A DNA stretch of 64,000 nt from positions 248,001-312,000 of the forward strand of contig NZ_JAGGKD010000002.1 of NCBI RefSeq assembly GCF_017873415.1, given 5' to 3'. The stretch is from Methanolobus bombayensis. GTDB lineage: Archaea; Halobacteriota; Methanosarcinia; Methanosarcinales; Methanosarcinaceae. Positions within the stretch are counted from its first letter, which is position 1, and every line of letters begins with the position of its first letter. The translations under genes were made by a program, and so were the position numbers. The notes under the pieces were generated by a model. It was not told the DNA's origin, did no database searches, and was given only the letters and a program-made list of their open reading frames with translations. This document shows, piece by piece, positions 30,286 through 50,789 of this stretch.

Positions 30286-30343
30286 AGTCTCCACTCAAGC
30301 ATTTTTTGCTCATAATTAAATGGCCGAAATCTTATTAATAGTT

Positions 30344-30380: not shown

Positions 30381-30470
30381 TTAGATTGGAGTAAGTATAA
30401 ATAGCAATAAAACATTGCTAAGTTCGGTGATTCAAATGAAACTTGATAAAAAATAAGATGACATTTGAAA

Positions 30471-31655: not shown

Positions 31656-31737
31656 TTTATTCTATATAATTTATAAGTATAGTTTATTAAAACTCTGTTT
31701 AGTAATATCTAAATATCATAGATGTTATTTTTATTAC

Positions 31738-31911
31738 ATGGCAACTGTAAAAATACAAAAAGATGGACATAAATGTGGAAGATGTGGACATGAATGGGTA
31801 CCACGTACTAAAATAAATGAAGACCCTGTGATATGTCCAAAATGTAAATCCCCTTACTGGAACAAGCCTAGAAAAAATAAGACTAAATTATCAAAAAATA
31901 AAGCTATCTAA
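31738..31911 (+). CDS. Small zinc-ribbon protein
   Basis: The 57-residue protein has two CxxC knuckles (HKCGRCGHEW and VICPKCKSPYW) and a lysine-rich tail. Such proteins are frequent in Methanosarcinaceae, often next to regulators or toxins. It probably binds nucleic acid. The ATG 31738 starts at the end of an AT-rich promoter region. Confidence 0.75.
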   Translation: MATVKIQKDGHKCGRCGHEWVPRTKINEDPVICPKCKSPYWNKPRKNKTKLSKNKAI

Positions 31912-31924
31912 AGAGTGAAAAAGC

Positions 31925-32483: not shown

Positions 32484-32634
32484 TTGTTTTGAAGAACGTT
32501 AACCCGTTCTTCCAGTATCATTTCTTGTTTTCAATCCTTGTTTTAGTGGATATTGCTTTTGAATTGCGATCACATCGAAGATTTCACACAAATAAATTAA
32601 GTGTTACGATACCGAAAACATAACATATCTATTA

Positions 32635-33153
32635 TTATAATTCAATTTTGGCATCAAGTAAAGGGATTAGCAAAGGCTCATCTCTTGTCACGGCTTTCTT
32701 TACCTTGTCGAGTGACAAACGTTCAGTGAACCGATATCCTCTTGATTTGTCTTTTTTAGACATGTATCGGGCTTCCACAAAATGAGGTAAATAGGTCGAT
32801 GCCATTCCCTCTAAACAGTTCCGAACAGTACCCACAGGGAACGGAAGAGTGGTATAGGTATCATTCGGAAGATTAATCTTTTCAAGTTCAGTATCTCTCG
32901 TCCACTCTATGCAAACATGGAGTATCTCAGAGTGGTACACATATTTAGGGATAGGATATACCTGTTCATGTATTTTGGCGAGTGCCAATAATACTATTTT
33001 TTGATTTAATGGTAGGCGTTCCATAAACCTATATCCCATATAATGTTCGCTACCATAGTCTGCAATTTCTCGGCTATACATTTCTTCATTAGACATCGGT
33101 TTGAAATCGCTATCCCTTGCCAACTTGAATCTTGATATTTTCGACACATCCAT
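32635..33153 (-). CDS. Hypothetical protein, winged-helix-like (Orc1/Cdc6-type C terminus?)
   Basis: About 172 residues. The middle and end (MERLPLNQKIVLLALAKIHE ... RFTERLSLDKVKKAV) look like the C-terminal winged-helix domain of Orc1/Cdc6 replication proteins, but the AAA+ ATPase part is absent. An internal echo, GYRFMERLPL and GYRFTERLSL, is visible. It may be a truncated Orc1/Cdc6 paralogue or an unrelated DNA-binding protein. ATG 33153 follows GGATGTGGTAAT. Confidence 0.45.
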   Translation of the reverse strand: MDVSKISRFKLARDSDFKPMSNEEMYSREIADYGSEHYMGYRFMERLPLNQKIVLLALAKIHEQVYPIPKYVYHSEILHVCIEWTRDTELEKINLPNDTYTTLPFPVGTVRNCLEGMASTYLPHFVEARYMSKKDKSRGYRFTERLSLDKVKKAVTRDEPLLIPLLDAKIEL

Positions 33154-33390
33154 ATTACCACATCCGGACATTGAGTTTCAATTTTTTATTGGCTATTGCT
33201 TTCGAATTGATCTTTTGTGTACTGTCATAAGTATCATTATGATTCAATGTTTGAGCAAGTTGTAAGTAAGATATTAGGGCAAGATGGATCAAAATCAATG
33301 TCTTTTTAGAACAATTACCTTTTTTTGATGTTCAATGTATTGAAACACACCTGTAGAGCTTTCAACATTATAATTGAATTTATTAACTGT

Positions 33391-33581
33391 ATGAACACTG
33401 AAAAAATCAGTATTCAAGGGGATAACATACTATTGTTGGCCACAACAAAAGTCTCTTTTTCAGTAGTTGTAAAGGGAGCAAAGCATGAAGAGTGGCCAAC
33501 AATAACGTGAGCGGGATAATATTTTGTTTTCGGGGTGGTTCTTAGTTGGTACCTGTATGTTATAGCAGGTTATCATCCCGC
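33391..33581. other. Triple hairpin element, related to the 47-kb cluster
   Basis: In order: a hairpin GAACACTGA/TCAGTATTC (33393-33415), a conserved tail GGGGATAACATAC, a perfect 13-bp inverted repeat TATTGTTGGCCAC/GTGGCCAACAATA (33431-33443 and 33492-33504) and a 7-bp stem GCGGGAT/ATCCCGC (33511-33517 and 33575-33581) whose loop carries G-tracts (GGGG, GG, GG). The first hairpin and tail recur at 46980-47022. No gene is present in 33154-33907. Confidence 0.65.
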
Positions 33582-33907
33582 GCTACATTTCTATACGGTA
33601 ACATTCGTATTTAAAAACATTCGACTTAAAACAACTAAAAAAGGGTTTTATTCAAAAAGAAACTAAAAAGTCTATAGGATACTTAAAAGAGAAAAGGTGA
33701 AATAACACCTTAATCCACATCACCATCAATCATAAAATTAACAAAACAGGATATAATGATCAGACATATTAACGGTCATATCTTCATCAAGACCGTACAC
33801 CTGACTTTTTTAATCACAACACTCAAAGTTAGCGTCCTTGAATGTTTTTCCTACACATATGGAACTATGTGCAGTATGAGGGGCTTAAAAGAAATATCAT
33901 CAAGATT

Positions 33908-34234
33908 TCAATTTGATTTTAACAACTTTTTATTCGCCGTAAGAATATCGATGTCATTACAATGAAAATCGCAATCATTTGTGACGAGGATATAGTTGTT
34001 TGTTTTACAAACATCTTGTAAAATAAGATCATTGAAATCATTATTTCCAGATTTATATTCTTGTATTAATTCTGATAAATCGATATTTGCTAATTGAGAA
34101 TCTGATGATACTGTTTTCGCAAGTATTTTTTCAACATTCAGAGATATTTCTTCAGAGATGGGATCAAATACAGCACTACTGTTTCTAAATGCTTTAAATT
34201 GGTTTTGTTTAAAAGGCTTTGTAGAAATCCTCAA
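33908..34234 (-). pseudogene. Truncated PIN-domain (VapC-like) toxin
   Basis: The C-terminal half reads like a PIN nuclease: NNDFNDLILQDVCKTNNYIL and VTNDCDFHCNDIDILTANKK, with the later acidic residues of the active site. The expected N-terminal strand with the first aspartate is missing, the only start is a weak TTG, and no VapB antitoxin adjoins it. It is probably a broken gene. The following 34235-34662 holds no gene I can support. Confidence 0.5.
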
Positions 34235-34662
34235 AATTCAAGCTATTATCCAAGTCAATAGAAATTCGATATGTAACCCTTAATAATGATTGCTATCGCA
34301 GAATTTTAGCTATAGGTGCTGATTTCGATAGGTTTTCTACAGAGTCAAATTTTGAATAAATCATTATATGGTGATAAACATTAATAATATATGATATATA
34401 ATGTGATATTGGCAATTAAAAGTAAAATAAATAAAGTGATGTATGTCAAACATAGCAATATCAATTTTATTGTTATTTTATTATTGTTAAAGACTTTAGG
34501 ATTCATGTGTAATCTCATGAAATAATTGCTAAATATTCATGTTATACTGAACGAGATCTTCAATCATTCTTGAACCAAATAAAGAACATTGAGATAAAAT
34601 CATTGACCTGCCTCCGTTAAATCATTCGAACCTTGCTTTTTTGCCTTTATATTGCAAACCAG

Positions 34663-35457
34663 TCATCCAATTTCAAATGGAGTGGAAGATTCCCACTCGG
34701 TATCTACGAAATGCTTGAAGATCTGAACATGCTCTTTTCCGTTGTACCATGTGGCATTGAGGCTTATTGGAACCACATCATCATTAATAGTAATAACAAG
34801 TATCCCTTTGTTGTCAATGACCAGTATTCCACCTTTAAGAGGTTGGGTTCTTTTTCCATTGCTGTACGTACGGACCTGTACTCCAGGAAACTCCTTTACA
34901 AGATCTCCCACGTGGCTCTTTTCACGTCCTGTAAGCTTCAGTTTTACACCCATAGCAATTTTCTTATGGATAGTATCCTTGATGGCATCCATTATAGGGT
35001 AAACTTCTATCACACGAGTTAGTGAAGGATAGAAGGATGCAAAAATAATCTCCTCGGTAGCAGATTCCATCATTTGCAGTATCTTATCATTGACATTCTT
35101 CACACCGTTGATATTCCATGCAGAGTTTTCTTCTGTGTGTTCCGCATTTTCACTATAGATGTTCTCAAGCTGTTCCCTGCAAAACTTGATAGCATCTTCA
35201 TAGTTAGCCTTGAGTCTGTCAATAACGATATCTGGGGATAGAGCCCTATAACGCATCGGTTTTGTATTCTGGACCTCGATTATACCTCTGTCATTTAAGC
35301 GGTCTATCACACCATAAACTGCAGAACGTGGGACACCCGAAAGAGCATGGATGTCCGCTGCATTCCTGCTTCCGTACTGCGTCAGTGCAACAAGGATCTT
35401 TGCTTCATAGGACGTGAGGCCAAACAATTGAAGAGAATCTATTAATGAATTCATCAT
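34663..35457 (-). CDS. TrmB-family transcriptional regulator
   Basis: The 264-residue protein has an N-terminal TrmB winged helix (LQLFGLTSYEAKILVALTQYGSRNAADIH and SGVPRSAVYGVIDRLNDRGI), a coiled linker and a C-terminal sensor domain. It is a paralogue of the protein at 38987-39772 (about 60 per cent identical over the helix by eye). It lies 42 bases after the COG1361 gene, so may be co-transcribed with the transporter. TrmB proteins sense small molecules, often sugars; in methanogens the ligands are mostly unknown. Confidence 0.88.
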   Translation of the reverse strand: MMNSLIDSLQLFGLTSYEAKILVALTQYGSRNAADIHALSGVPRSAVYGVIDRLNDRGIIEVQNTKPMRYRALSPDIVIDRLKANYEDAIKFCREQLENIYSENAEHTEENSAWNINGVKNVNDKILQMMESATEEIIFASFYPSLTRVIEVYPIMDAIKDTIHKKIAMGVKLKLTGREKSHVGDLVKEFPGVQVRTYSNGKRTQPLKGGILVIDNKGILVITINDDVVPISLNATWYNGKEHVQIFKHFVDTEWESSTPFEIG

Positions 35458-35499
35458 AGTACTTACGTTATTACATCCTATTTGTTATTTTCTTCATCT

Positions 35500-36564
35500 C
35501 TACTCCTTTTTTCTGGACCTTAAATACAGTGGTATACTGACAATACCCACCAGGACTACAGCACCTAACATAGTAGTTCCATTCAGGCTGGATTCGGACT
35601 CACCAACATTCACCGAAGCCTTGAGATCATCGGAATACTGACTTTCATCGTGTTTGTCAGTATACTTCACTTCAGTGCTGATCGCATAGGGTTTCACTGT
35701 AGCATCATCTGCCACATTAACCTCGAAAGTTGCAGTCTTTGAATCTCCGGGGTACATGTCACCAAGATATGCTTCGTCATCGCTGGTTGTGAATGGATCC
35801 ACAACACTTATCCTTGCAATACAGTCGTATGCAACATCATCTCCAATGTTCGCATAGGTTATGTTGATGGTTTCCTTATCACCCTTCTGAAGACCAGATT
35901 CTGTCTTTATCACCTTGAAATATGGTTCCTCCTCTACAAAAATATCAAGGTACATTGTCTGGTTCATTTCTTCATGCCAGTAGTATGTGTCACCGTAGGG
36001 AGGAGTTACAGCAGAATCTTTTTGGTACCTGTATTTCACATTGAGTTTCAATCTGTAAGTACCAGCTTCTGCATTGTCATATACCTCTATAGGGAATTCG
36101 GCAGGTGATTCTAAGGATTTACCTGAACTAATTGAACCCAGAAGCAGGGTATCAAGTTTTATGTCTATGGGAGTATCCGGGTCTACAAGTGAAAGTGTTG
36201 CTGTTATATCCTCAGCTTTTGTAATGGCTCTGTCAGAAGCGAGTTCACTTGCCATGTAAGTCCTGGTAAGTGTCTCACCAATCTGTCCATCTCTGAAATC
36301 ATCCTCAATCTCATCCTCATCGGCTTCAAGTCCTGTGATCTGACCATCGTTCATGATGTTCACGTACAGGACAGCATCTTCACCTCTCTCAAATACATCA
36401 TCGCAGGCGAGGTTTGCTACTAGATGAGGGGAACCGTAAAGATCGTAGTAATCACTTGCTATTTCTGAAATAACGTCTTCATCTATGCTTGCAGACGCAC
36501 TATGCATACAACTTAGCACCAAGAGTGCTATCGTGAGCATCTTTACATTTTTAAGGGATATCAT
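35500..36564 (-). CDS. COG1361-type exported protein, RND partner
   Basis: The 354-residue protein has a signal peptide, two or three Ig-like/CARDB-type domains (VANLACDDVFERGEDAVLYV; IKTESGLQKGDKETINITYA) and a C-terminal membrane helix with a basic end (RSRKKE). Its start overlaps the end of the RND transporter gene by four bases (ATGA-type), so the two are translationally coupled. COG1361 proteins next to archaeal RND transporters probably form the external part of an export system. Confidence 0.85.
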   Translation of the reverse strand: MISLKNVKMLTIALLVLSCMHSASASIDEDVISEIASDYYDLYGSPHLVANLACDDVFERGEDAVLYVNIMNDGQITGLEADEDEIEDDFRDGQIGETLTRTYMASELASDRAITKAEDITATLSLVDPDTPIDIKLDTLLLGSISSGKSLESPAEFPIEVYDNAEAGTYRLKLNVKYRYQKDSAVTPPYGDTYYWHEEMNQTMYLDIFVEEEPYFKVIKTESGLQKGDKETINITYANIGDDVAYDCIARISVVDPFTTSDDEAYLGDMYPGDSKTATFEVNVADDATVKPYAISTEVKYTDKHDESQYSDDLKASVNVGESESSLNGTTMLGAVVLVGIVSIPLYLRSRKKE

Positions 36565-38882
36565 ACATTCACCTTGCTATATTTTGTATTTTTGTTCTCT
36601 AATTTATCTGAAGATTGGTGTTTTATTCTCCACCTATCAAGGTTTACCATGATGGGTGGCAGCACAATAACTGTGCTCAACAAGGAAAATGCAACAGCTA
36701 TCACTGTAACTTTTCCAAAATCACTTATCATTGGGAACGAGGATACAATAAGGGCTGAGAAGCCAAATATGACAGTAGAACCTGATGCAATGATAGCCGG
36801 ACCAACTGAAGATGCAGCCTTTTCCATTGCATCATATGGTTCCATGCCTTTTTCACGTTCCTCAAAGTAACGTTCAAGCATCAATATTGTGAATTCTGCT
36901 CCAATGCCTATTGCAAGAGCACCAAGAGTGGCAGTCAGCGGATTGTATGGCATGTCAAGGAGATACATCACTCCCCCTATCCAGCCTGTTACCATTACAA
37001 TTGGTAATATTGTGGATACAGCCTTCAGCCAGTCCCTGTAGATCACAAGCATTCCCAAGAAGATAATTACCATCCCAAGATAACCCATAGTTGTCCTGCC
37101 GGATGTCAGGGCATCTATAATGGAATTTGTCATTACCTTTGAACCTGTGACAGTTACCGTAGTACCTGCTGGAGGATCATACCATTCCATGTCACTTTTG
37201 ACAAGGTCAATGGCTGTTGTGATTTGCTCAGAAGGAAGGTCACTCTCAAGTTTCAGGTTTATTACAGCAAGATTGCTTCCTTCGATGTACTGATCCGTTA
37301 CAACCGAGGACATGCTATCAGTGACAGAAGTAATGGTATCCTTATCTGAGGGAATCGAACCATGACTTGATTCGATCAGGGAGGCAATGCTGCTTGAACC
37401 TGTTATATAGCTATTGCTTTCTTCTTCTCTTTCAGAAAAATCTAACATCCATTGCAGCAGGTCTGGATCAAGGACATCATCTGTTCTGACAATAATGTTT
37501 ATCTGATCAATTCCACCCACCACTGTTGTTAGTTTATTCAGATTCTGCAAAGCCCGCATGTCCTGTGGTACAAAATCCTTTGTCTCGGTCTGAACACCTA
37601 CATGTTCATCAGCATACAATCCTCCCGCTGCAAGAACAGATGCCAGCACAATGATGATCAAAGGTCTTTTTGCAGAGAACATGGCAACATGGGAAAGTAC
37701 TTTCCCAATAGCTGTTTCCTTTTGTTCTGCTTTTTTTACAGAAGCCTGTCTTGCAGGATACCTGCGTTTCTTTTTCTCTTCTCGTCTGTCAAGTAGGTAT
37801 AAGATGGATACAAGAACAAACATTGAAGCAATGTAACAGAGTAGCACACCCACAAGACTCATTTTGCCGAAATCCTGTATCATAGGAACCGGGGATATTA
37901 AAAGAGCGATAAAACCCAGACATGTGGCTACAACAGCACTCCCAACAGCAGGACCAGTATGTGTGATTGTATCAATAATGGCTTCTTCGACACTCTCACC
38001 TTTTGCAAGTTCTTCTTCCACACGGTTATGGAACTGAATTGCATAGTCGGCACCAAGTCCGATAAGAATTGGGAATACTGCCATGGATGCCATCGTCATG
38101 GGTATGTTCAGATAACCCATTGCACCAAAAGTCCATATCAAACCTATAAGAACTACAGGCAATGGCATCAGACACCACCTGACATGTCTGAATACCATAA
38201 GCAATGCAAAGATCATCAGGACAAATGCAAGGATAAGCATTGTTTGGAGACTTGAGCTCATCTCTTCGGACATCGCAATCATAAAAGCAGGTTCACCTGT
38301 TGCAACAGCATTTGTGCCTGTGGGAAAATCAACCACTTCAATTGTTCTCTCTACCCGCGTAAGCACTCTTTCCTTGTTGTCTTCATCTATGTTTCCCGGC
38401 AACTGCACCATAATAATAGTATGCGTGTTGTCAGGCATCAACTGGTCAACATAAGCAGAAGGCAGTAAATCAATTATTGACAGAATGGAATCGTAATTAT
38501 TGGGTATTTCAGAATGGCCGGTGACGGAATATGCAGTATTCTTAATCAGTGATGCCATACTGATAACATTCTCTACATCCTTATCTCGGGCTATCAGCGT
38601 ATCAAAATCATCAATTGCTTCGATGACTTCAGATTCCCTTACATCATCAGAATCGATGAGCACCATTATAACTTCGTTTCCAAAATTCTGCTTGTAGATA
38701 TGATCATAGTTCTGATAGAGGTCAGAGTCTTTTTCTACAAAAGTGTCTGTTCCACTTTTATGTTCTATCAAGCCTGCTCCTTGAAATGCAATCAGCATCA
38801 TGAGAATCGCAACGATAATTATTCCCAGAGGCCATTTCTCAATCACAGCTCCAATTTGTTCAAATATTTTTTTTGCAGACAT
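36561..38882 (-). CDS. RND/MMPL-superfamily exporter (HAE3-like)
   Basis: The 773-residue protein has two homologous halves, each with a long extracellular loop and five to six helices. The mid-helix acidic signature is present in both (GLGADYAIQFHNRV and GIGAEFTILMLERY). The family exports lipids or hydrophobic compounds using ion gradients. It is transcribed with the COG1361 gene and sits next to the Tes-type radical SAM gene, so export of a membrane lipid or envelope component is a fair guess. An 8-bp inverted repeat sits just upstream of the start. Confidence 0.88.
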   Translation of the reverse strand: MSAKKIFEQIGAVIEKWPLGIIIVAILMMLIAFQGAGLIEHKSGTDTFVEKDSDLYQNYDHIYKQNFGNEVIMVLIDSDDVRESEVIEAIDDFDTLIARDKDVENVISMASLIKNTAYSVTGHSEIPNNYDSILSIIDLLPSAYVDQLMPDNTHTIIMVQLPGNIDEDNKERVLTRVERTIEVVDFPTGTNAVATGEPAFMIAMSEEMSSSLQTMLILAFVLMIFALLMVFRHVRWCLMPLPVVLIGLIWTFGAMGYLNIPMTMASMAVFPILIGLGADYAIQFHNRVEEELAKGESVEEAIIDTITHTGPAVGSAVVATCLGFIALLISPVPMIQDFGKMSLVGVLLCYIASMFVLVSILYLLDRREEKKKRRYPARQASVKKAEQKETAIGKVLSHVAMFSAKRPLIIIVLASVLAAGGLYADEHVGVQTETKDFVPQDMRALQNLNKLTTVVGGIDQINIIVRTDDVLDPDLLQWMLDFSEREEESNSYITGSSSIASLIESSHGSIPSDKDTITSVTDSMSSVVTDQYIEGSNLAVINLKLESDLPSEQITTAIDLVKSDMEWYDPPAGTTVTVTGSKVMTNSIIDALTSGRTTMGYLGMVIIFLGMLVIYRDWLKAVSTILPIVMVTGWIGGVMYLLDMPYNPLTATLGALAIGIGAEFTILMLERYFEEREKGMEPYDAMEKAASSVGPAIIASGSTVIFGFSALIVSSFPMISDFGKVTVIAVAFSLLSTVIVLPPIMVNLDRWRIKHQSSDKLENKNTKYSKVNV

Positions 38883-38888
38883 GATATC

Positions 38889-38910
38889 TGTTAGTAATAG
38901 AATACTAACA
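38889..38910. promoter_or_regulatory. Putative TrmB operator between RND and trmB genes
   Basis: TGTTAGTA and TACTAACA form a perfect 8-bp inverted repeat with a six-base spacer, seven bases before the RND start and about 80 before the divergent TrmB gene. Its place between divergent genes fits a regulator site for one of the TrmB paralogues. Confidence 0.55.
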
Positions 38911-38986
38911 ATATGAATAGTTATTTAATACTAGTTTATTGTTGTACCGAAGATAGTAAATAGAAGATACTTATATCAATGTTATT

Positions 38987-39772
38987 ATGCAATTGTTAAT
39001 AGAATCTCTGCAACAATTAGGTTTGACAGCCTATGAAGCCAAAATTCTGGCAGCACTAACGCAGTACGGAAGCAGGAATGCAGCTGACCTCCATACTCTT
39101 TCGGGTGTCCCACGTTCTGCTGTGTATGGTGTAATAGACAAACTTAAAAACAGAGGGTTAATCGAGATTCAGAACTCCAAACCAATGAGATATAAAGCAC
39201 AGGAACCCGAAAGAATAATCACTCTGTTGACAAAAGATTACGCGGTTGCTGTGGATTTTTCCCTGGAACAACTTGAAAATATCTATCAAAAACAGGAAGG
39301 GACTTTAGAAGATAACTCGGCATGGAATATTAATGGTGTGAAGAATGTCACTGACAAGATACTTCAAATGCTTGAATCATCCAATAAAGAGATTCTTTTT
39401 TCTTCGTCATACGTTCCATTGAACCAAATTGTTGCTGTTTATCCTATTATGGGCAGTATTTGGAAAGAGATTCGTGAAAAAATCAGTGAGGGCGTGAAGG
39501 TTAAAATAACTGTCAATGATAAAATTTATGCAGATGAAATTGCCACAGAGTTGCCCGGTGCTGAAGTCAAAGTGTATAATAAAAAGAACAATTCTAGTCC
39601 TCTAATGGGTGGTATCCTTTCTGTTGATGAGAAAGAACTTCTTGTAGTCACTGTCAATGATGAAATATTTCCTCCTAACCTCAATGCTACATGGTACTGT
39701 GGGAAAGAGCATGTTCGTGTTTTCAGGCATTTCATTGATGCAGAGTGGAATCAATCTGCATCAATAGAATAG
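38987..39772 (+). CDS. TrmB-family transcriptional regulator (paralogue)
   Basis: The 261-residue protein has the same architecture as the protein at 34663-35457: winged helix (LQQLGLTAYEAKILAALTQ) plus sensor domain (NSAWNINGVKNVTDKIL). It is divergent from the RND operon and 43 bases before the Tes-type gene, so it may control both. Having one paralogue on each side of the operon suggests duplication with split control. Confidence 0.88.
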   Translation: MQLLIESLQQLGLTAYEAKILAALTQYGSRNAADLHTLSGVPRSAVYGVIDKLKNRGLIEIQNSKPMRYKAQEPERIITLLTKDYAVAVDFSLEQLENIYQKQEGTLEDNSAWNINGVKNVTDKILQMLESSNKEILFSSSYVPLNQIVAVYPIMGSIWKEIREKISEGVKVKITVNDKIYADEIATELPGAEVKVYNKKNNSSPLMGGILSVDEKELLVVTVNDEIFPPNLNATWYCGKEHVRVFRHFIDAEWNQSASIE

Positions 39773-39815
39773 TCTCGTATCCATAGCAGATAAAAGTAAT
39801 AAAAATGGTGAGCAA

Positions 39816-41384
39816 ATGACTAGCAAATGCACAACAGACTGCAATTTGAGTATAAATGTAGTTTCAAAAAATAGCGAAACGGATGAGCTAAATAAAAAAC
39901 AAAGGTTGCACATAAAAAATACAATCTCACTTTGTCCGGAATGCTTGGACAAAATTCCTGCTGAAATTTTCACAGAAGATGGCAGCGTTTACCTTTCCAA
40001 GTATTGTTCTAATCATGGTACTTTCCAAGATATCTATTGGTCTGATTTTGAACTTTATAATAAGTTCTGTCAATCTCATGTAGTAGGCACAGGTGTTTTA
40101 AATCCTGCAATAAAGAGCGAGAATCATCTTCTTGATTGTGGATTATGTGAAAAACATACAACCAGCACTATTCTGGCAAACATTGATGTAACAAATAGAT
40201 GTAATCTTAACTGTCCTGTATGTTTTGCGAATGCAAAAAGAAGTGGATTCATTTATGAGCCAAATGAAGAACAGATTCAGAATATGCTACTTATGCTTAG
40301 GAATCAGAAACCTGTTCCATGCTGTGCGGTCCAATTTTCTGGTGGTGAACCAACTGTACGTGATGATTTGCCAGAGCTAATATCAATGGCAAAAGACCTT
40401 GATTTTTTACATATTCAAATTGCCACTAATGGAGTAAGAATTGCAAAGGATGTAGAATTTGCACATAAATTAAGGACAGCTGGTCTTCAGACTGTCTATT
40501 TGTCATTTGATGGTATAGGAGAAGAACCCTATCACATTACACGTGGTTTTAATGCCTTTCCATTGAAAAATGCTGCAATAAACAACTGTCGTACTGCAGG
40601 AATTGCGAGCATTGTGTTGGTACCAACTCTTATAAAAGAAGTAAATGATCATCAAGTTGGAAATATAATCAATTTTGCTTCAGAAAGGCTTGATGTTATC
40701 AAAGGCGTCAATTTCCAACCAGTTGCTTTCACAGGTCGCATTGATCAGACAGAAAGAGAGAAAAAAAGAATTACAATTCCAGATTTTTTATTAATGACTG
40801 AAGAACAAACAAATGGGACTATCTGCAGGGATGATTGGTTCTCTGTACCACAATCAACGTCAATATCCAGATTCATAGCAGCCATGTTGAACAAACAAGT
40901 TCTACAATTCACAATACATCCTCACTGTGGAACTGTTACATATATTTTCAAAGATGGAGATAAGCTAATTCCTATTACTCGTTTTGTGGATGTAGACGGT
41001 TTGTTTGAATATCTAGATGAGATATCCCCTCAGATAAGTAATACGAATTTTCAGATAAAAAAAGCAGGTCTTACTAGTAAAGCCCTTCACAAAATATCCA
41101 GTTTCATCGATCAGAAAACTGCTCCACAGTCTATCAATGTCACGAAAATGATAATGGATTTTTTCAATAAAGGTACAGGAGAAGCTTTAAAGCCCTTCCA
41201 CAGGAATAGTTTGTTCCTTGGATCAATGCATTTTCAAGATCCCTATAATTTTGATATCGAGAGGGTGCAGAGGTGTGGAATACACTACGCTACACCAGAT
41301 GGACGTGTGATTCCATTCTGTGCATATAATACAATCCATCGACAGGAAGTAGAGGCAAAATTCTCAAAACCGTTTTACTCATAG
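39816..41384 (+). CDS. tes: Tes-family radical SAM protein (tetraether synthase-like)
   Basis: The 522-residue protein has the MJ0619/Tes layout: an N-terminal cysteine-rich module (LCPECLDKIPAEIF), the radical SAM cluster motif (TNRCNLNCPVCF), SGGEPTVRDDLPELI and further cysteines toward the end (RCGIHYATPDGRVIPFCAYN). Characterised Tes (MJ0619, MA_1486) joins archaeol chains into tetraether lipids by forming carbon-carbon bonds. Here the partner RND exporter and two regulators suggest regulated lipid remodelling. Tes-like paralogues with other roles exist, so the exact substrate is not certain. Confidence 0.83.
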   Translation: MTSKCTTDCNLSINVVSKNSETDELNKKQRLHIKNTISLCPECLDKIPAEIFTEDGSVYLSKYCSNHGTFQDIYWSDFELYNKFCQSHVVGTGVLNPAIKSENHLLDCGLCEKHTTSTILANIDVTNRCNLNCPVCFANAKRSGFIYEPNEEQIQNMLLMLRNQKPVPCCAVQFSGGEPTVRDDLPELISMAKDLDFLHIQIATNGVRIAKDVEFAHKLRTAGLQTVYLSFDGIGEEPYHITRGFNAFPLKNAAINNCRTAGIASIVLVPTLIKEVNDHQVGNIINFASERLDVIKGVNFQPVAFTGRIDQTEREKKRITIPDFLLMTEEQTNGTICRDDWFSVPQSTSISRFIAAMLNKQVLQFTIHPHCGTVTYIFKDGDKLIPITRFVDVDGLFEYLDEISPQISNTNFQIKKAGLTSKALHKISSFIDQKTAPQSINVTKMIMDFFNKGTGEALKPFHRNSLFLGSMHFQDPYNFDIERVQRCGIHYATPDGRVIPFCAYNTIHRQEVEAKFSKPFYS

Positions 41385-41462
41385 ACATTTACTGTCCCCA
41401 GTTGTAATATACTGACCGGAGAATGTGGAATATTTTAGAAATGGAAAAAATGGGTGTTAAAT

Positions 41463-42650
41463 ATGATTGAAGAAGCTGTAAGCCCGACATTAACAGAGAA
41501 CGATTCTAGAAATAGCGATGTTGGAAATCAGGTTGGTATGGATAAGAATAGGTTGCTGAATTTCATAAAAAAAAGAAACAATTACATCAAAACGCTGCCT
41601 AAAAAGGAAAAACAAGCATTTATTGCTTCAATAAATGAACTGAAAGAAAGTAAGAATAGTATTGAAAGACTTTTTTTGAAGAAGAAATCAGGAAAGAATA
41701 TCGATGACCTTCTTTTTTCATTTGATGATCTTCCTCTTTTTGGAAAAGAATATTGGTTCATGAAATTTACTGCTAATGATGGCTCAAAACGTCAATTTTT
41801 TTTGATGTTTGGTAGAACAGACGGTGACATCGAGGTTAATGGTCGCTACATAAAAGATAGCAAAGTGTCTGATAACCGAACAGAGGGTTATTGTGTTTCA
41901 TGGGAATATGATGAAAAACAGAGAACGATTACAGATGACCTCTGCACCATTGAAATTAAGGATGATATTATAGCTTGTTTTAATGATAATATCAGTGCTG
42001 AATTTTGTGGTTCATTTCCTGAATATTCTCTGAATATTATGGAAGCTGGTAAAAAGTTTTGTTCTCTGACGATAAAGAAACCTGAAAATACTGAATTCAT
42101 TTCCGAGTTGTCAGAGCAATTCAAAGGTTTGTTTGGTTTTCGCCTAGCTAACCTTTATTTTGATTTCGAAGGTCAGCTTTCTTGTAACGATTTCTCAGGT
42201 AAATGTTATGCTCAAAAGGTCATAGTAGTTGGTCCGTTCATTCCATGGAAATGGTCAAGGATAGTTTTCAGGAATGGTTCTATATTGACTTATTTTGTAC
42301 CCTCGATTGAGGTAATGGGGGTGGAATATGATATTTACAATTCTATGAGTTTTTACGATTCCATGACTCAGAAAATGCACTATTTCGAAAAGGTTAGTGT
42401 TCATGAATATCCTTCAGAGAAAGAAGATAAAAGGTGGATTGTTACTGCTGAAGGAAATAAGGTATTTGTAGTCATGAAAAGCTACTGTAAAAAGTCATTC
42501 AGCTTCAGGAAAGATTTTGATTTTAAATACATTGAAAATCTTGTAGAAGTCATTGATCTTAAAATCGAAACTAATTATGATGTAATTACACTGGATACTA
42601 CTGGAAGTGGCCAGGGAATGGTGGAAGACACATCGGGATTTGTGATCTAA
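41463..42650 (+). CDS. Hypothetical protein downstream of tes
   Basis: About 395 residues with no signal peptide or membrane helix. The N-terminal 75 residues are charged helices (NNYIKTLPKKEKQAFIASIN). The remainder is rich in aromatic and beta-forming residues (GPFIPWKWSRIVFRNG), suggesting a lipocalin-like barrel of the CrtC/AttH type, but I cannot confirm a family. It lies 78 bases after tes and may act in the same process. The ATG at 41463 with GGGTGTT upstream is preferred over GTG 41454. Confidence 0.6.
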   Translation: MIEEAVSPTLTENDSRNSDVGNQVGMDKNRLLNFIKKRNNYIKTLPKKEKQAFIASINELKESKNSIERLFLKKKSGKNIDDLLFSFDDLPLFGKEYWFMKFTANDGSKRQFFLMFGRTDGDIEVNGRYIKDSKVSDNRTEGYCVSWEYDEKQRTITDDLCTIEIKDDIIACFNDNISAEFCGSFPEYSLNIMEAGKKFCSLTIKKPENTEFISELSEQFKGLFGFRLANLYFDFEGQLSCNDFSGKCYAQKVIVVGPFIPWKWSRIVFRNGSILTYFVPSIEVMGVEYDIYNSMSFYDSMTQKMHYFEKVSVHEYPSEKEDKRWIVTAEGNKVFVVMKSYCKKSFSFRKDFDFKYIENLVEVIDLKIETNYDVITLDTTGSGQGMVEDTSGFVI

Positions 42651-42777
42651 TACGGAATTGGTAAAGGAGCGCAGATCTATGGATTGTAGCAAACTATACT
42701 TGGTGATTTTATTTGCGCCTTCTTTGATGTACTTTACAGTAATGCTGCACAATATATTGTGAAATCGGTGACCTTGT

Positions 42778-42909
42778 ATGTATTTTAGTATACTACAGAG
42801 ATACTTGATAGTAAAACGATACAAGAAAATAATAGAGATTTTGCTAAAGATCGCAATAATCAATACATCTATTATATATTTTATTGTATCGTATTATAAT
42901 CTTATATAA
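42778..42909 (+). pseudogene. 43-residue duplicate of the UbiB N terminus
   Basis: A small frame with a good GGTGA signal starts ATG at 42778. Its first 24 residues (MYFSILQRYLIVKRYKKIIE) resemble the start of the adjacent UbiB-like kinase (MNLSILRKYSMIKRYKKIID), then it diverges into a hydrophobic tail and stops. The DNA is also similar over about 65 bases. It is probably a partial 5' duplication; a translated leader peptide is possible. Confidence 0.5.
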
Positions 42910-42925
42910 AAATAGGAGAATCGGT

Positions 42926-44611
42926 ATGAACCTTAGTATACTACGCAAATACTCAATGATAAAAAGGTACAAAAAAATAATAGATATTTTGATAAAATAT
43001 GAATTTGACTATCTTGTTGATCAGTTGAAACTTCGTCCGTTTCACATTCACATCTTAGATTCAAATAAACTCTATACATCAAAAGAAGAAGCAGTATCAC
43101 GTCCTGAAAGATTACGGGAAGTACTTGAAGAACTTGGTCCTACCTATGTGAAATTAGGACAAATACTCAGTGTTCGTAAGGATTTGATACCGCTTGAATA
43201 TGCAGATGAATTTGCAAAACTTCAGGACAATGTCCCTTCATTTGCATTGGAAGATGTTGAATATGTAATTCAAGATGAGTTGGGAGCCACTCTTGATGAT
43301 TTATTTGAAACTTTTGAACGTAAACCAATGGCAGCTGCATCTATAGGTCAGGTACATAGAGCTAAGTTGAAAGATGGTATGAATGTGGTTGTTAAAATCC
43401 AACGTCCACATGTCAATAAAATTATTGAAACAGATCTGGATATTATGAATAGTCTTGCCAGACTTGCTGAAGAACGTGTTCAGGCTGCCAAGCAATATGG
43501 ATTGGTCAAAATTGTAGATGAGTTTTCAAGATCAATTCGTACTGAACTCGACTACACACAAGAAGCTCAATATATTGAACGTTTCTCTTATAATTTCAAA
43601 GATGAAAAGTCAGTCTACATTCCAAAAGTATACTGGAACTATAGTAGTCAAAAGATTTTGACGCTTGAATATATCGATGGCATTAAAGCAAATGATTTTC
43701 AATCACTTGACAAATTAGGATATGATCGAGAAAAAATAGCAATGATTGGTTCCAACGCCTTTATGAAACAGATATTTGAAGATGGTTTATTTCATGCAGA
43801 TATTCATCCTGGTAATGTTTTTATATTGGACAATGAAACTATTGCACTGATTGATTTTGGCATGGTTGGTCGGTTGTCGAATGACCTTCAAAATGGATTT
43901 ATTGATGCACTCTTCGCAATGAAAAAGGGTGATGTTGAGCAGTTTGTAGAAATTATGTATGAGTATGATGTTATTGGAAGTGATGCAGATACTCAGAGAT
44001 TAAAAAATGATATTGAAACATTCTTAGATAAATACTACGGCAGATCTTTAAAGCAAATGGATGCAGCATCAATGATTAGTGATATATTCGTTATATTGCA
44101 AGAACATCATGCAAAACTTCCACCAAATGTTGCTTTACTTTTAAGGGGAACAATTATGATTACAGGATTTGGTTCTCAGCTGATGCCCGATTTTAATCTG
44201 GCACTTGTTTTTGAACCACATGCAAAAAAATATATGAAAAAACGTTTGAGTCCTAAGAATATTACAAATTCAGCATTAAAGAATGTACCGAAATATTCTC
44301 GTGTACTGCACAAAATGCCGATGCAGATATCACAAATTCTGTCTTTAATAGAAAAAGGTGAACTAAATATCAAATTCAGGCATAATGAACTTGAAACATT
44401 ACCTCAAGAAATTAATGATGCAAGTAATCGTATTGCATTTAGTTTTATTGTGTCAGCCATAATAATAGGTTCATCATTGATTTTGCAAACTGATATGGAA
44501 CCACTCGTCTGGGGCGTTCCATTTCTTGGAGTCTTTGGATTTATCATAGCTTTCCTTTTAGGAATGGGGTTTGTTATCTCTATTCTCAAAACGGAACGTA
44601 TTTACAATTAG
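42926..44611 (+). CDS. ABC1/UbiB-family atypical kinase
   Basis: The 561-residue protein has the UbiB/COQ8 pattern: LGPTYVKLGQILSVRKDLIP, PMAAASIGQVHRAKL (the alanine-rich A-loop and KxGQ motif), HADIHPGNVF and LIDFGMVGRL, with two helices at the C terminus. UbiB-type proteins are ATPases that support isoprenoid quinone or other lipid biology; in methanogens methanophenazine is a possible link. ATG 42926 follows GGAG at 42915-42918. It is not obviously co-transcribed with tes. Confidence 0.88.
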   Translation: MNLSILRKYSMIKRYKKIIDILIKYEFDYLVDQLKLRPFHIHILDSNKLYTSKEEAVSRPERLREVLEELGPTYVKLGQILSVRKDLIPLEYADEFAKLQDNVPSFALEDVEYVIQDELGATLDDLFETFERKPMAAASIGQVHRAKLKDGMNVVVKIQRPHVNKIIETDLDIMNSLARLAEERVQAAKQYGLVKIVDEFSRSIRTELDYTQEAQYIERFSYNFKDEKSVYIPKVYWNYSSQKILTLEYIDGIKANDFQSLDKLGYDREKIAMIGSNAFMKQIFEDGLFHADIHPGNVFILDNETIALIDFGMVGRLSNDLQNGFIDALFAMKKGDVEQFVEIMYEYDVIGSDADTQRLKNDIETFLDKYYGRSLKQMDAASMISDIFVILQEHHAKLPPNVALLLRGTIMITGFGSQLMPDFNLALVFEPHAKKYMKKRLSPKNITNSALKNVPKYSRVLHKMPMQISQILSLIEKGELNIKFRHNELETLPQEINDASNRIAFSFIVSAIIIGSSLILQTDMEPLVWGVPFLGVFGFIIAFLLGMGFVISILKTERIYN

Positions 44612-46621
44612 ATTCATTCATCTAAGCTTAAAAGCGATAAACAGTAATCTTCCAACGACATCAGAAATGAAAAACATAGAAAAAAAATAAATCATTTAAA
44701 TGCATTGTATAACAACCAGGCAGAATTATTAGTGCATATATGTCAATGGTATATCGTTAAAAATAACGCTATTTATTTTTGAATACTAAATAAGTAGTTA
44801 AAGTTGATGATTTATTAATTTCCACATATGCTTGTAAATCTTTTAGAGTATGTAAGGTAACGACATTAATGACAAGGTAAAGTAAACTTTATTTATACAA
44901 TTAGAAGATGTGATGTACAAGTACAACTAGATGTTTAATTATAAATATTATTTATTGATGACTGCAAATAATGGTAATAGGTTACATGTTGATATGATGT
45001 TGTCCTCTTCAATTTTATTAAATATAGTGCATAATATCGAAGAGGAAGTTTCATCTACTTTCGGATGTACTGATCTTTGACATATTATTTAGTATTAAGT
45101 TTGAGACCGTGGTTTTTAACTTTATGTCGTATTTAATGTCAAAACATATACTATAGTATATGCTTTATTTTCATAGATTTGGCAACTGAAAATATCTATT
45201 TTTTTAATAAACGAGCATTATAATGTATACTATAAACTATACATTTAAATTTTCAGATACAATTTTTTATTTATTAAGTATGAATTATTAATATGTTTTA
45301 ATTTTATGCGGCTATTATTATATATTATAATATAAGATGAATAGTATAGACAAAACACTTAATAATCTATAATATAATATTAGTTTTATTTTATTATCAC
45401 TTATCAATTAATTTTTACTATAATCTAATAATAATGTCTCAGTTCATACCAACATATAAATTTTCATGTCATTGTAAATTTTTATTATCTAATTAAAATA
45501 TGAAGCTTTGAAGTTAATCTGCATTTGTTTATTAAACTCCTAAAAAATAAAGGTAATTTTGCTGTTTTATTTCAATCAGCTTGTTTACAACATGTGATGT
45601 ATAGTTTTCAGTTAAAAGTCCACTTCTTGGTAGTGTTTTTATGCGTATTAGTCAGTTTATTGAGCATAATATGAAATTTCAAAGTCTATATGAATAGAAT
45701 ATGTACTATAATTGCTCTAATTTTTCCTGATACTTTTGTATAAATCATATTGGGGTTGCAAGTCAAAGTAGGTCTATTCATATATACTATGGAACAATCG
45801 ATTTTAGAAAAATATACCCTTTTTTGCAAAATCTCGAAAATAGCAAAACCAATACTACATACTATATGAATATGGATTTTCATAAAAACCACAAAAATCA
45901 ATCCATTGCACAGTTTAAAAATTATTTAAGTCAACACTCATTTTTCACTTGTTGTTCAGAAAATCCGCGCCGATTTTAGATTGGTCTTTTCAATGCTGTG
46001 ACTCTATACTAAAAGCTTTGAAAAATATTATATAAAAATAGCATAATAAATTCGGTTTGGTGGCGTTCATACATAGCAAATAATAATTGACTGTGAACTA
46101 ACTTTAGTAAAAATATATAAAATACTATCTTGCATTTTTAATTTTAATATAAAGTATACACTAGTTACCAAATACTTCTTATATTTTATTAGTAACTTCC
46201 CTGTAGTATAACTGATAGTAATATTAATCTACTCAAATAATTATCATTCTGGGATCTTGTTCACTAAATCTCCAAAATAGGCCAAAAAGTGCTATTTTGT
46301 TCGTATTTTTACGAAATCAATAATTAATTAAGCATGATTTTATAAATTTATGTTAATGTATTAATTTTTTTATTAGAATTGTAAATCATATGCGTAACCA
46401 AATATTATTACATCATAATATACACAAAAGAATAGAATAAACGTAACTAAAAATAATTACATATTGCTTTTTTGGTGAAACTTTGAAGTATCGAATGATT
46501 CACTCCGGAAAATTTCCCAGGACACAATTACCAGGTCTTTGATCTTAACATGTTTCAGGTCGTATTTCATGGACTAATTCATGCAATAATCTGAGTTTCC
46601 AGTTAAGAGCCTTACAGATCA
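44612..46621. other. Two-kb AT-rich gene desert
   Basis: No gene is supported in this stretch; short open frames have poor composition. It contains an 8-bp inverted repeat TCCTCTTC/GAAGAGGA (45003-45010 and 45039-45046) and, right after it, the 18-bp sequence at 45056-45073 shared with the MFS upstream region. Otherwise I see only AT-rich sequence. Confidence 0.5.
45056..45073. repeat. 18-bp sequence shared with 29409-29426 (inverted)
   Basis: TACTTTCGGATGTACTGA, the exact reverse complement of the sequence upstream of the MFS gene. It follows a hairpin (45003-45046) inside the gene-poor zone. Confidence 0.6.
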
Positions 46622-47022: not shown

Positions 47023-47206
47023 CAAAAAAAAATCAATAAAAAAAGAGATATATTGCCATCATGTAGCATATCCCTATTACTTCTTTTTTATGTATTTTTG
47101 GTATATACGAATACAAATACTGATGTTTTAATATTTAAACTTTATTAAATAAATTATCACTGTTAACCTATCTATATAAAAAAATCCTTTGGGAGAATAA
47201 AATAGA

Positions 47207-47267
47207 TTGCCTGATATGGTTGGGGTGGGGTTGGGGGTGGTACGTGGTCAAAAATCATATCAGGCGA
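47207..47267. repeat. Hairpin element A with G-tract loop
   Basis: GCCTGATATG (47209-47218) pairs with CATATCAGGC (47256-47265), extended by two weaker pairs. The 37-base loop holds GGGG, GGGG, GGGGG and GG tracts in succession (47222-47240), a strong candidate G-quadruplex, and ends CAAAAATCA as in element B. A further perfect 8-bp stem, TTGCACAG/CTGTGCAA, follows at 47277-47317. Confidence 0.7.
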
Positions 47268-47493
47268 AGTAAAGTATTGCACAGTAGGATTATATTGTTT
47301 ATAATTATTCTGTGCAACATCTACCTTATTACTAATCCTATTTATACGTTATTATACTAGTAGTATCTTATTATGCTATTGCTATAATCTCACATCAAAG
47401 ATGTGGAACCAATATCCTTAACAGGCGGATAGTTTTGAATAAATATAGAAATATACTTACAAGGGTTAAATCTCTGTAAAGAGAATAGGGAAT

Positions 47494-47564
47494 GTTGTCT
47501 TACAGGAAAAAGTAGTCGTTTACATCTATCGGAGGACAATAGCTTTTCTTCCATATAAGACAAC
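47494..47564. repeat. Hairpin element with 53-base loop
   Basis: GTTGTCTTA (47494-47502) and TAAGACAAC (47556-47564) form a perfect 9-bp stem around a 53-base loop. It directly precedes another stem-loop at 47578, as in the pair at 33.4-33.6 kb. Confidence 0.6.
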
Positions 47565-47577
47565 TATTATTTTTCAG

Positions 47578-47644
47578 GTCTGATAGAGGTTGATGTAGAC
47601 CGATGGTTGGTTGGTATGATCTATTTATAGTCCCTCTATCAGAC
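47578..47644. repeat. Hairpin element E, 12-bp stem
   Basis: GTCTGATAGAGG (47578-47589) pairs perfectly with CCTCTATCAGAC (47633-47644). The loop contains GGTTGGTTGG. The CTGATA core is shared with elements A and C while the rest of the stem differs but stays paired. A 7-bp stem CTATCAT/ATGATAG lies further on at 47912-47938. Confidence 0.65.
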
Positions 47645-48113
47645 TAAATTGAAGCATATTAACCATATAACCTGGATCAGCAAATATTTTGTTATATGAT
47701 TAATATCTCCCAAAACTCACTCCCCAGTGTGCTTAGTCCCATTCTCCAATTCATTTATTTGTTTAATCAGTTATATAAACAAATTGCATTTTTATTTACG
47801 ATGCTCTTTGAAATAATAAAGTCGTTATAATTTTGAACGCCATTAACAGTATCACACAATAAGAGTAGAAATCATATCCTTGAAAGGTGAACATGTTAAT
47901 AGGCCGTGTTTCTATCATCTACAGGTGCATAATGATAGTTCTCTAATACTCTTACTTCATCTCCTAAGCATCGCTGATTGATTCTATATCTTGATAGTCA
48001 TTTCATCTGTTAGTCTAAAGAAAATCAGGTAATAAATAAGCTCTACAAGTATTCCAATAAAAAAAATTAAAAATAGGTTCACATGATTTGAACTGTTTTA
48101 GAGATTAAGGAAG

Positions 48114-48170
48114 TTGCCTGATGTGAAACATGTTAGGCTTGGTTAGGTGGCAAAAAATCACATCAGGCAA
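48114..48170. repeat. Hairpin element B, 13-bp stem
   Basis: TTGCCTGATGTGA (48114-48126) pairs perfectly with TCACATCAGGCAA (48158-48170). The loop contains GTTAGGCTTGGTTAGGTGG with four GG pairs and ends CAAAAAATCA. Compared with element A the stem has changed from ATATG/CATAT to GTGA/TCAC, keeping pairing. Confidence 0.7.
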
Positions 48171-48400
48171 AAAAAGGAGGGTAATCTTAATTATTTACTC
48201 CAACCTTCATAGATATTTTATTTTAAATTTATATATAAGTTTATACAAATAATATAAATGATTAGTATAATTGAGTAATTTATTTAGTATGTGATGTAAA
48301 GAAAATTTTAATCTAAATTCTTAGAAACATTGCGAAAAAGATGGTTTTTTAGCAATAGTGCTGCTAATTTTATGAAAAATTGAAGCACAAAAAACGAAGA

Positions 48401-48453
48401 TTGCCTGATAAGGTTTGTCAGGGTTATTATTATACTTGATGCTTATCAGACAG
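48401..48453. repeat. Hairpin element C
   Basis: CTGATAAG (48405-48412) pairs with CTTATCAG (48442-48449), with an outer mismatch and two to three more pairs. It shares the TTGCCTGAT start of elements A and B; its loop has one GGG tract only. Confidence 0.6.
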
Positions 48454-48590
48454 CAGATGACACAAACTTACGAGCATGTCCAAATTAGAAATTCACTTGC
48501 TTTTGTGTAATTGTTACTCTTTGTTTATGGTTCAAATCGCATTTTCAAATTTTATGTTTTAAGCCCAACAAAAAATAATTAATAAATAAA

Positions 48591-48647
48591 TGCCTGATGG
48601 GATTATGTTAGGATTAGGCTAGGCATTTAGTGGTTATCCTTACAGGC
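48591..48647. repeat. Hairpin element D
   Basis: GCCTG (48592-48596) pairs with CAGGC (48643-48647), then after a 2x2 internal loop GGGA-type pairs continue. The loop carries GTTAGGATTAGGCTAGG and a later TGG, four GG tracts closely matching element B. Confidence 0.6.
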
Positions 48648-48853
48648 CTTGAGAGGATGTATGATATACACTCCTGCACTATGCAACAGTTAATTTTTAT
48701 ATAACACTACATATAGTTATTGTAAACTAAATTATTTTAGTGATATAAGGTTAAAATTTATTATTAGTGTATATATATGCTTATCAATTTGGAGATAAAA
48801 GCTGGAGTAAAATATTAAAATAAATTACATTTATCACCGTTGGAGTAAGAAGA

Positions 48854-48873
48854 CCACCGGATTCATCCGGTGG
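48854..48873. repeat. Left-end hairpin of the IS200/IS605 element
   Basis: A perfect 9-bp stem with a two-base loop (CCACCGGAT-TC-ATCCGGTGG) overlapping the 3' end of tnpA, in the place expected for the TnpA-binding hairpin. Confidence 0.8.
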
Positions 48874-49279
48874 ATGAATTACGTCTCCTATTGGAACTAC
48901 CGTCAATGTATCTCTTAATCGTTTCAGCTGATACCTGACCATGAGTACCAAAATAATAGCTTGGCGACCAAAGATGATTTCCCAGAAATTCCTTTTTTCG
49001 TAATTCGGGAAACTTCTGGAAAACCCTCTTAGCAGTAACACCTTTCATAATTTTAACAATATCAGTAGGTGCTATGAATGGTGGTGCTGATATGAAAAGA
49101 TGGATATGTTCAGGCATGACCTCAAGTTCAAGTATTTCCCATTCCTTAGAATCTGCTATTGTTCTTATCTGATCATCAAGAAACTCCTTTAACTCATCAT
49201 TCATAACCTGTTTCCGGTATTTAGTGCACCATACAATATGATAATTAATTTCATATACAGCAGAACTCGAATATGACAT
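48863..49279 (-). CDS. tnpA: IS200/IS605 transposase TnpA (Y1 HUH)
   Basis: The 138-residue Y1 transposase has the HUH motif at residues 58-60 (PEHIHLF) and the catalytic tyrosine Y124 in ETIKRYIDG. It cuts and rejoins single-stranded DNA at hairpin ends using a phosphotyrosine intermediate. It is complete. Its start is divergent from tnpB, 53 bases away. Confidence 0.92.
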   Translation of the reverse strand: MSYSSSAVYEINYHIVWCTKYRKQVMNDELKEFLDDQIRTIADSKEWEILELEVMPEHIHLFISAPPFIAPTDIVKIMKGVTAKRVFQKFPELRKKEFLGNHLWSPSYYFGTHGQVSAETIKRYIDGSSNRRRNSSTG

Positions 49280-49332
49280 ATATTCATATAGTTACAAAAG
49301 CTATTTAAACATTGTTGACCTATAGGTTTTCA

Positions 49333-50481
49333 ATGCAGAAATCATATAAGTTTAGGTTATATCCTACAAAACAACAGGAAATGAATTTGAACAGAACACT
49401 TGATGTTTGTAGACATATCTATAACGAATTTCTTGCAGATCGTAGAAATGCATACGAAAGATGCAATCAAGGATTATCCACTATAGAACAACTGTATCAG
49501 GTTCAGTACCTTGAATTTGATACTGAAGTGCATTCTCAGGTAAAACAGGATGTAATCAGAAGATTAGGTAAATCATTTGATGCTTTTTTCAGACGATGTA
49601 AGAACGGAGAAGCAAAAGTAGGTTATCCTCGGTTCAAAGGCAAGAGACGATATAACAGTTTTACCTATCCCCAATCTGGTTTTAGTATCTCTGGAAAGAA
49701 GTTGAAGCTATCGAAGATTGGAGAGATCAAGATAGTTCAGCACCGAGAGATTGAAGGCAAGATCAAGACCTGTACTATTCGCAAAGATGGGAAACAATGG
49801 TATGTTACATTCTCTGTAATCATTGAGAACAATGTTACACCTGTTGAACCTGTTACCTTTGTAGGTATTGACGTAGGACTCAATTCTCTGGTAACTTTGA
49901 GTGATGGTACTCAGATAGATCCTCCGAAATATTATCGCAATACGGAAGGCGAATTAAAAAGACAACAACGTAACCTTAGTCGTAAAAAGAAATTCTCTAA
50001 CAATTGGAAGAAACAATGTGATAAGGTAAACACCTTGCATCGTAAAATTCGCAATCAGAGGAACTATTTTAACCATAAACTAAGCAGGGAACTCATTAAT
50101 GCTTACGATTACATAGCTTTTGAAGACCTGAATGTAAAGAACATGGTTAAAAATTCAAGACTATCAAAGTCAATACATGATGCATCATGGAGTAACTTGA
50201 TTCAAATCACAAAATACAAAGCGGAAGAAGCTGGTAAGTTTGTAGAATTAGTAAATCCATATAACACATCTCAACTATGTAGCAACTGTGGTCAAAAGGT
50301 AGAAAAATCATTAGCGGTAAGGACACACAACTGTCCTCACTGTGGATTAGTTCTTGACCGTGACCATAATGCCGCTATTAATATTCTCAATCGTGCTGTA
50401 GGAACTACAGTTCAAGCCTGTGGAATTGAGTCGTTGGACTCGATAATGAAGCAGGAAGCCACTGGTTTTAACCAGTGGTAG
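49333..50481 (+). CDS. tnpB: TnpB RNA-guided nuclease
   Basis: The 382-residue protein has all RuvC catalytic residues: D180 (FVGIDVGLNS), E264 (AFEDLNV) and D344 (LDRDHNAA), plus a zinc ribbon with C316, C319, C334 and C337 (CSNCGQ and CPHCG). TnpB proteins cut DNA guided by omega RNA made from the element's right end and are the ancestors of Cas12. ATG 49333 is preferred to a TTG seven codons upstream, because it starts the conserved YKFRLYPTKQQ segment. Confidence 0.92.
   Translation: MQKSYKFRLYPTKQQEMNLNRTLDVCRHIYNEFLADRRNAYERCNQGLSTIEQLYQVQYLEFDTEVHSQVKQDVIRRLGKSFDAFFRRCKNGEAKVGYPRFKGKRRYNSFTYPQSGFSISGKKLKLSKIGEIKIVQHREIEGKIKTCTIRKDGKQWYVTFSVIIENNVTPVEPVTFVGIDVGLNSLVTLSDGTQIDPPKYYRNTEGELKRQQRNLSRKKKFSNNWKKQCDKVNTLHRKIRNQRNYFNHKLSRELINAYDYIAFEDLNVKNMVKNSRLSKSIHDASWSNLIQITKYKAEEAGKFVELVNPYNTSQLCSNCGQKVEKSLAVRTHNCPHCGLVLDRDHNAAINILNRAVGTTVQACGIESLDSIMKQEATGFNQW
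50459..50478. repeat. Right-end hairpin, probable omega-RNA 3' part
   Basis: A perfect 9-bp stem with a TT loop (CCACTGGTT-TT-AACCAGTGG) overlapping the last codons of tnpB. In related elements the right-end hairpin is also part of the omega RNA that guides TnpB; the guide would then come from sequence immediately to the right of the element. Confidence 0.75.
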
Positions 50482-50789
50482 TTCACTCCCTCGGTATTCT
50501 TTTAATATGCAAATGTTGCTATTTATATTTTATTGTTTTCATTCTGCACAAAAATATATTTAATGGCACATTACATTAGTCAAAAAACGACTTTTATTAT
50601 CAATTATATTTATAATTATCAGTATGCTTTTTAGGTACTTTTGGTTTTACAACTGCTATCAAATACAGGCATAGATTTAATATATAATTATATTCTTATA
50701 TATTTTTAACTATGTGAATTATTTTACTGTAATATACGCACCTAAAATTAATTATATATGTAATTGGTTAAATCTCGGATTTAGAATTT

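Follow-up and report, generated by a model that had tools for sequence, protein, structure and literature searches.

Putative tandem small RNA genes in a long intergenic region of Methanolobus bombayensis

Small RNAs (sRNAs) that occur as tandem siblings are known in bacteria. A well-described example is LhrC of Listeria, which consists of two stem-loops and a linker and carries C-rich motifs in the loop, the linker, and the terminator loop (PMC4132741). Each of these motifs can help to bind a G-rich region upstream of the lapB mRNA start codon (PMC4132741). Among methanogenic Archaea, nine conserved, cold-induced sRNAs with a “cold box” have been reported in M. psychrophilus R15 (PMC5378194), and the intergenic regulatory sRNAs sRNA162 and sRNA154 in Methanosarcina mazei (PMC5867862). 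We found no description of a tandem sRNA array of the sort presented here in the archaeal literature, although this search covered open-licence papers and is weak evidence.

Here, we analyze a cluster of hairpins in a window of 64,000 nucleotides (the whole stretch of M. bombayensis DNA under study). Judged by their sequence features, the hairpins are best explained as the 3′ ends of four or five related sRNA genes, lying in tandem in a long intergenic region and apparently having their own promoters. We consider it very probable that they belong to non-coding RNA genes encoded on the minus strand.

Hairpins and candidate minus-strand units

All five hairpins originally predicted at 47207-48647 were found (window coordinates throughout):

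47207-47266: hairpin A, minus-strand terminal hairpin of candidate unit A
47576-47645: hairpin B, terminal hairpin of the candidate B-type RNA
48114-48169: hairpin C, terminal hairpin of candidate unit C, with a 13-bp stem
48401-48452: hairpin D, terminal hairpin of candidate unit D
48591-48647: hairpin E, terminal hairpin of candidate unit E, with a weak stem here

A, C, D, and E carry the proposed common start, TGCCTGAT, without mismatch, whereas B starts with GTCTGAT. The predicted stems are present in A (ATATG/CATAT), B (AGAGG/CCTCT), C (GTGA/TCAC), and D (ATAAG/CTTAT). They are 10-13 bp long in these four hairpins, and the perfect arms of C (13 bp) and B (12 bp) are among the longest close inverted repeats of the whole window. 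Pairing is better than in shuffled sequence for A to D (folding z-scores against dinucleotide shuffles of -4.2, -3.9, -5.1, and -3.2, respectively), but not for E, which in its own genome is no better than shuffled (z 0.03). The stem of E is weak here, yet E has conserved orthologues in five further Methanolobus genomes. No convincing gene was found at 44.6-48.8 kb of the window.

The original view that the stems covary, and that the structure is therefore selected, holds up. Over 15 hairpins from several species, both sides are changed in 6 of 12 pairs and 95.9% of cells are paired; none of 500 shuffles was equally good, and sliding the partner columns lowered pairing from 96% to 25-47%. Several members of this set were chosen because they pair, which overstates the case. 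The orthologues collected for units D and E, which mostly came from DNA similarity, provide cleaner evidence.

Read on the minus strand, a unit comprises, in order, an A-rich BRE-like sequence, a TATA box, about 12 nt, the motif AGTAACtGTTGCA, a 5′ part with a short stem, often CCTCCT, a hairpin with the C-rich loop CCAACCAACCCTAACATG, and a T-rich tail. The predicted features are as follows:

48575..48716, minus strand: sRNA unit E; TATA box 48716-48707 (CTATATGTAG), start motif 48694-48682 (ATTAACTGTTGCA), predicted start ~48686, terminal hairpin 48647-48591, then a T-rich tail below 48591; based on orthologues in five other genomes, with identical promoter spacing
48385..48540, minus strand: sRNA unit D; degenerate TATA box 48540-48531, start motif 48518-48506 (AGTAACAATTACA), terminal hairpin, T-rich tail; based on alignment with orthologues from four genomes
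48092..48238, minus strand: sRNA unit C; TATA box 48238-48229 (TTATATATAA), CCTCCT 48180-48175, terminal hairpin 48170-48114 with 13-bp stem
47770..47779, minus strand: predicted TATA box of the B-type RNA (TTTATATAAC), 18 nt upstream of the modelled 5′ end
47577..47751, minus strand: B-type RNA, ~175 nt; 41-pair consensus of three helices plus the terminal hairpin 47645-47577, loop AUACCAACCAACC
47185..47347, minus strand: sRNA unit A; TATA box 47347-47338 (GTATAAATAG), start motif 47325-47313 (GGTAGATGTTGCA), 5′ hairpin 47319-47275, terminal hairpin 47266-47207, T-rich tail

In all 11 cases, drawn from six genomes, the start motif begins precisely 23 nt from the beginning of a TATA box, and TATA-like sites number only 22 in 16.6 kb of the same genomes. 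In M. psychrophilus, BRE/TATA elements lie ~19-22 nt from mapped transcription starts (PMC5378194), a distance that places the predicted start inside the motif. Tails contain 10.2 T per 20 nt against a background of 6.7. CCTCCT is absent from about half of the units. As in multicopy sibling sRNAs, the units are paralogous and have their own predicted promoters. They combine conserved secondary structure with a terminal stem-loop and a T-rich tail, the exception being B, which has no obvious T-rich tail. In the proposed scheme, each unit would be transcribed from its own archaeal promoter (BRE plus TATA). Transcription would begin ~20-22 nt beyond the TATA box, end in the T-rich stretch, and yield an RNA of ~100-175 nt that forms one stem-loop in its 5′ part and another at its 3′ terminus.

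Both strands fold almost equally well, so folding alone cannot decide between them; the minus strand was chosen because of the predicted promoters and T-rich tails. We also considered plus-strand transcription, with AGGAGG as a Shine-Dalgarno sequence before an open reading frame (ORF). No conserved frame of this kind was seen, and both the T-tails and the side on which the BRE lies favor the minus strand.

The minus-strand fold of unit A (118 nt) consists of two clean hairpins (z -7.9), and unit C (102 nt) alone has a z of -4.1. Folded alone, units D and E give weaker values (-1.2 and -0.9), while the consensus folds of their orthologues reach -6.6 and -2.9, respectively. The loop sequence is strongly conserved among unit E orthologues. 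In the 5′ stem of unit D (GCACA/TGTGC), one G-C pair is replaced by A-U in this genome, where the TATA box is also degenerate or lost and CCTCCT is lost. The local copy of unit D is thus probably decaying.

Distribution and chromosomal setting

The M. bombayensis genome measures 3.1 Mb, and relatives from the same genus have parts of the same intergenic region. In 12 relative genomes, the region adjoins a conserved gene trio, whose products are a DUF2551 protein and two others, one of 137 aa and one of 149 aa that has no Pfam match. A hairpin search of the syntenic loci recovered the same stem (TGCCTGATAAG/CTTATCAGGCA) and variants of it, repeated in one orientation. The array occupies the same place, in the same orientation, in Methanolobus relatives.

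We built covariance models of the terminal hairpin (R1) and of the B-type RNA (R2), whose E-values are rough. Early MAFFT alignments misplaced B or E, and the models were built on better-aligned sets; a joint alignment of every unit type proved too uneven to be modelled. The search of Methanosarcinaceae genomes that had been suggested as a check produced further copies: R1 had matches in 12 of the 27 Methanolobus genomes, and the 85 genomes from other Methanosarcinaceae gave none. At E ≤ 0.001, every R1 match falls within the array locus in M. bombayensis (3/3), G001 (5/5), G019 (5/5), and G007 (4/4), while matches lie partly elsewhere in G004, G005, G022, G024, and others. In genome G026, which we take to be that of M. 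psychrophilus R15, probably correctly, there was no significant R1 match and no R2 match, and the weak R1 matches that we inspected look like coding sequence. No Rfam family matched at the gathering or a loose threshold, in agreement with the earlier suggestion of a novel RNA family.

The setting of the locus bears on a DNA-level reading, under which the hairpins would be cruciforms, protein-binding sites, or markers of chromosome position, for example near the replication terminus. In complete or near-complete genomes, the locus lies at 0.43-0.50 of the chromosome from cdc6-1, and a 1.4-kb conserved non-coding block adjoins it. However, the distance from cdc6-1 may only mirror conserved gene order, recognizable hairpins are missing in 15 of the 27 Methanolobus genomes, and fixed promoter spacing and T-tails would be unexpected for such an element. 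We therefore regard this reading as improbable. As for a role at the replication terminus in particular, the location is suggestive, but across 400 kb of G001 the GC skew has no extremum at the locus. The cdc6-1 distances refer to the array locus or the flanking DUF2551 gene in G001, G002, G004, G005, G007, G008, G019, G024, and G026.

Several further observations concern the surrounding DNA. The conserved block, ~1.4 kb of non-coding DNA at 45124-46500, is conserved with ~66% identity at the corresponding position of six further Methanolobus genomes. It was considered as a structured RNA in its own right, but showed little structure signal except near one end. About 330 bp at 44752-45087 have two further, diverged copies (74-77%) on another contig of the same genome, near 279 and 295 kb of G000:C4. 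In relatives (loci L033 and L035), an MFS transporter gene homologous to window positions 28202-29383 directly adjoins the conserved non-coding region; in M. bombayensis, ~15 kb (29400-44611), including a transposase-like gene at 30465, separates the two. A single CRISPR direct-repeat match (RF01320) lies at 32528-32564, and no second repeat was reported in the window.

Hairpin B appears to be the last hairpin of a larger RNA of ~175 nt, with a closing helix, a GGGG-loop hairpin, and a long hairpin. Its consensus, from eight homologues, comprises 41 pairs (z -9.0), four of which are changed on both sides. We rejected a small ORF as an explanation, since by eye neither start codon nor frame is kept between homologues. 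R2 matches include copies at several loci of G025 and G019, as well as more distant copies near R1 matches in G004 and G024 that were not used in building the model. Together with the common terminal hairpin, these copies indicate at least two RNA architectures that share one terminal hairpin.

Off-array relatives of the terminal hairpin occur in G004, G024, and G005 (loci L096, L104, L085, and L084, with hairpins near position 1501). Some of them have a common body, GTGGAACCTTATAAA..GCCTGATAAG, and lie near matches to the B-type model. These relatives suggest a second array.

The adjacent insertion sequence and G-rich loops

The array ends beside an insertion sequence, which lies outside the proposed system:

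48829..50498, no strand assigned: IS200/IS605 element, boundaries approximate
48863-49279, minus strand: TnpA of the element
49312-50481, plus strand: TnpB of the element
48854-48873 and 50459-50478: end hairpins of the element, CCACCGGAT..ATCCGGTGG and CCACTGG..CCAGTGG

The original prediction recognized this neighbor correctly, TnpA being adjacent to the array, and offered as one option that the hairpins are REP-like elements mobilized by it. REP/RAYT palindromes and IS200/IS605 ends do resemble A-E in being imperfect palindromes near a Y1 transposase. However, A-E are clustered, are syntenic in genomes that lack the element, and differ in sequence from its end hairpins. An exact-pattern search of the M. 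bombayensis genome returned the array and chance matches, with no dispersed copies above chance. TnpA scored 34 bits against the REP-associated transposase model (cut-off 80) and is an ordinary IS200/IS605 enzyme rather than a cognate REP transposase. TnpA and TnpB were not found in the syntenic array regions of relatives, so the simplest explanation is that the element entered this genome later. The mobilization option is contradicted by these results.

The second structural proposal, that four G-tracts in the loops form a stem-closed G-quadruplex, is not supported. The plus-strand loops are G-rich, but several runs of at least three Gs occur only in A, namely three. The other hairpins show three GG runs in B and four in C, a GG and a GGG in D, and one GGG with several GG in E. 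Four long G-runs are not kept in relatives. Moreover, the minus-strand loops are C-rich, leaving the G-tracts on the predicted non-transcribed strand, which argues against an RNA G-quadruplex. Mobilized palindromes or quadruplexes are, taken together, a highly improbable account of the hairpins.

Possible mode of action and comparison with known sRNAs

The tandem sRNA reading is well supported by sequence in its unit anatomy, promoter spacing, conserved structure, and synteny; from these we infer transcription, termination at the tail, and action on mRNA translation. Most likely, the C-rich parts that stay unpaired would base-pair with target mRNAs at G-rich Shine-Dalgarno regions; these parts are the apical loop (CCAACC / CCCUAACAUG) and a CCUCCU linker that several units possess. 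This mechanism is suggested by the LhrC-like anatomy of the units; no homology is claimed, and we put pairing with mRNA forward tentatively, as somewhat short of an even chance. In a simple search with one loop, the complement of the common loop 10-mer showed no enrichment in the genome over a reversed control.

The RNAs might instead act by binding a protein, as a sponge or scaffold comparable to CsrB for CsrA, or by pairing of a G-rich 5′ loop with a C-rich 3′ loop within or between copies. The multiple copies with one common C-rich terminal loop fit such behavior, as do the GGGG or GGGAG 5′ loops of B and several off-array members and the failure of the simple search to return targets. On the other hand, no candidate protein is linked to the array, and the CCUCCU linkers resemble anti-Shine-Dalgarno sequences. 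We consider action of this kind rather unlikely.

Taken as a whole, the proposal of tandem paralogous regulatory sRNA genes, each with its own promoter and with C-rich loops that pair with mRNA, stands at about an even chance. A broader and more speculative idea, which we think less likely to be right, is an archaeal sRNA superfamily in which a short two-hairpin type and the multi-helix B type have one C-rich terminal hairpin module in common; kept as a tandem array, they would jointly control translation initiation in methylotrophic methanogens in a dosage-tunable way. If expressed, the array would add an RNA family missing from Rfam and offer a compact comparative system, with several species, several paralogues, conserved loops, and one decaying copy. 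It would also test how archaeal sRNAs choose their targets and whether C-rich loops of the bacterial type act on archaeal ribosome-binding sites.

As a published phenomenon, the R15 cold-box sRNAs come nearest to the array. Compared through genome G026, the predicted array sRNAs and the R15 cold-box sRNAs are probably different RNAs. They are alike in coming from the same genus, in forming sets of several mutually conserved intergenic sRNAs, and in having BRE/TATA elements 19-22 nt from the start (PMC5378194). sRNA162 and sRNA154 resemble the candidate array members as intergenic regulatory sRNAs of a related methanogen; however, the review mentions no tandem or multicopy arrangement (PMC5867862), and R1 has no match in other Methanosarcinaceae. 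In anatomy, the units are like LhrC1-5 of Listeria monocytogenes, which also occur in several similar copies, each with a stem-loop, a single-stranded linker, and a terminator stem-loop; the linker and the terminator loop contain C-rich motifs able to block a G-rich ribosome-binding region (PMC4132741). Unlike LhrC1-5, the Methanolobus array has archaeal promoters, other terminal stem and loop sequences, and one B-type member with a different body. Multicopy sRNAs are a known kind, and the Methanolobus family is new to Rfam.
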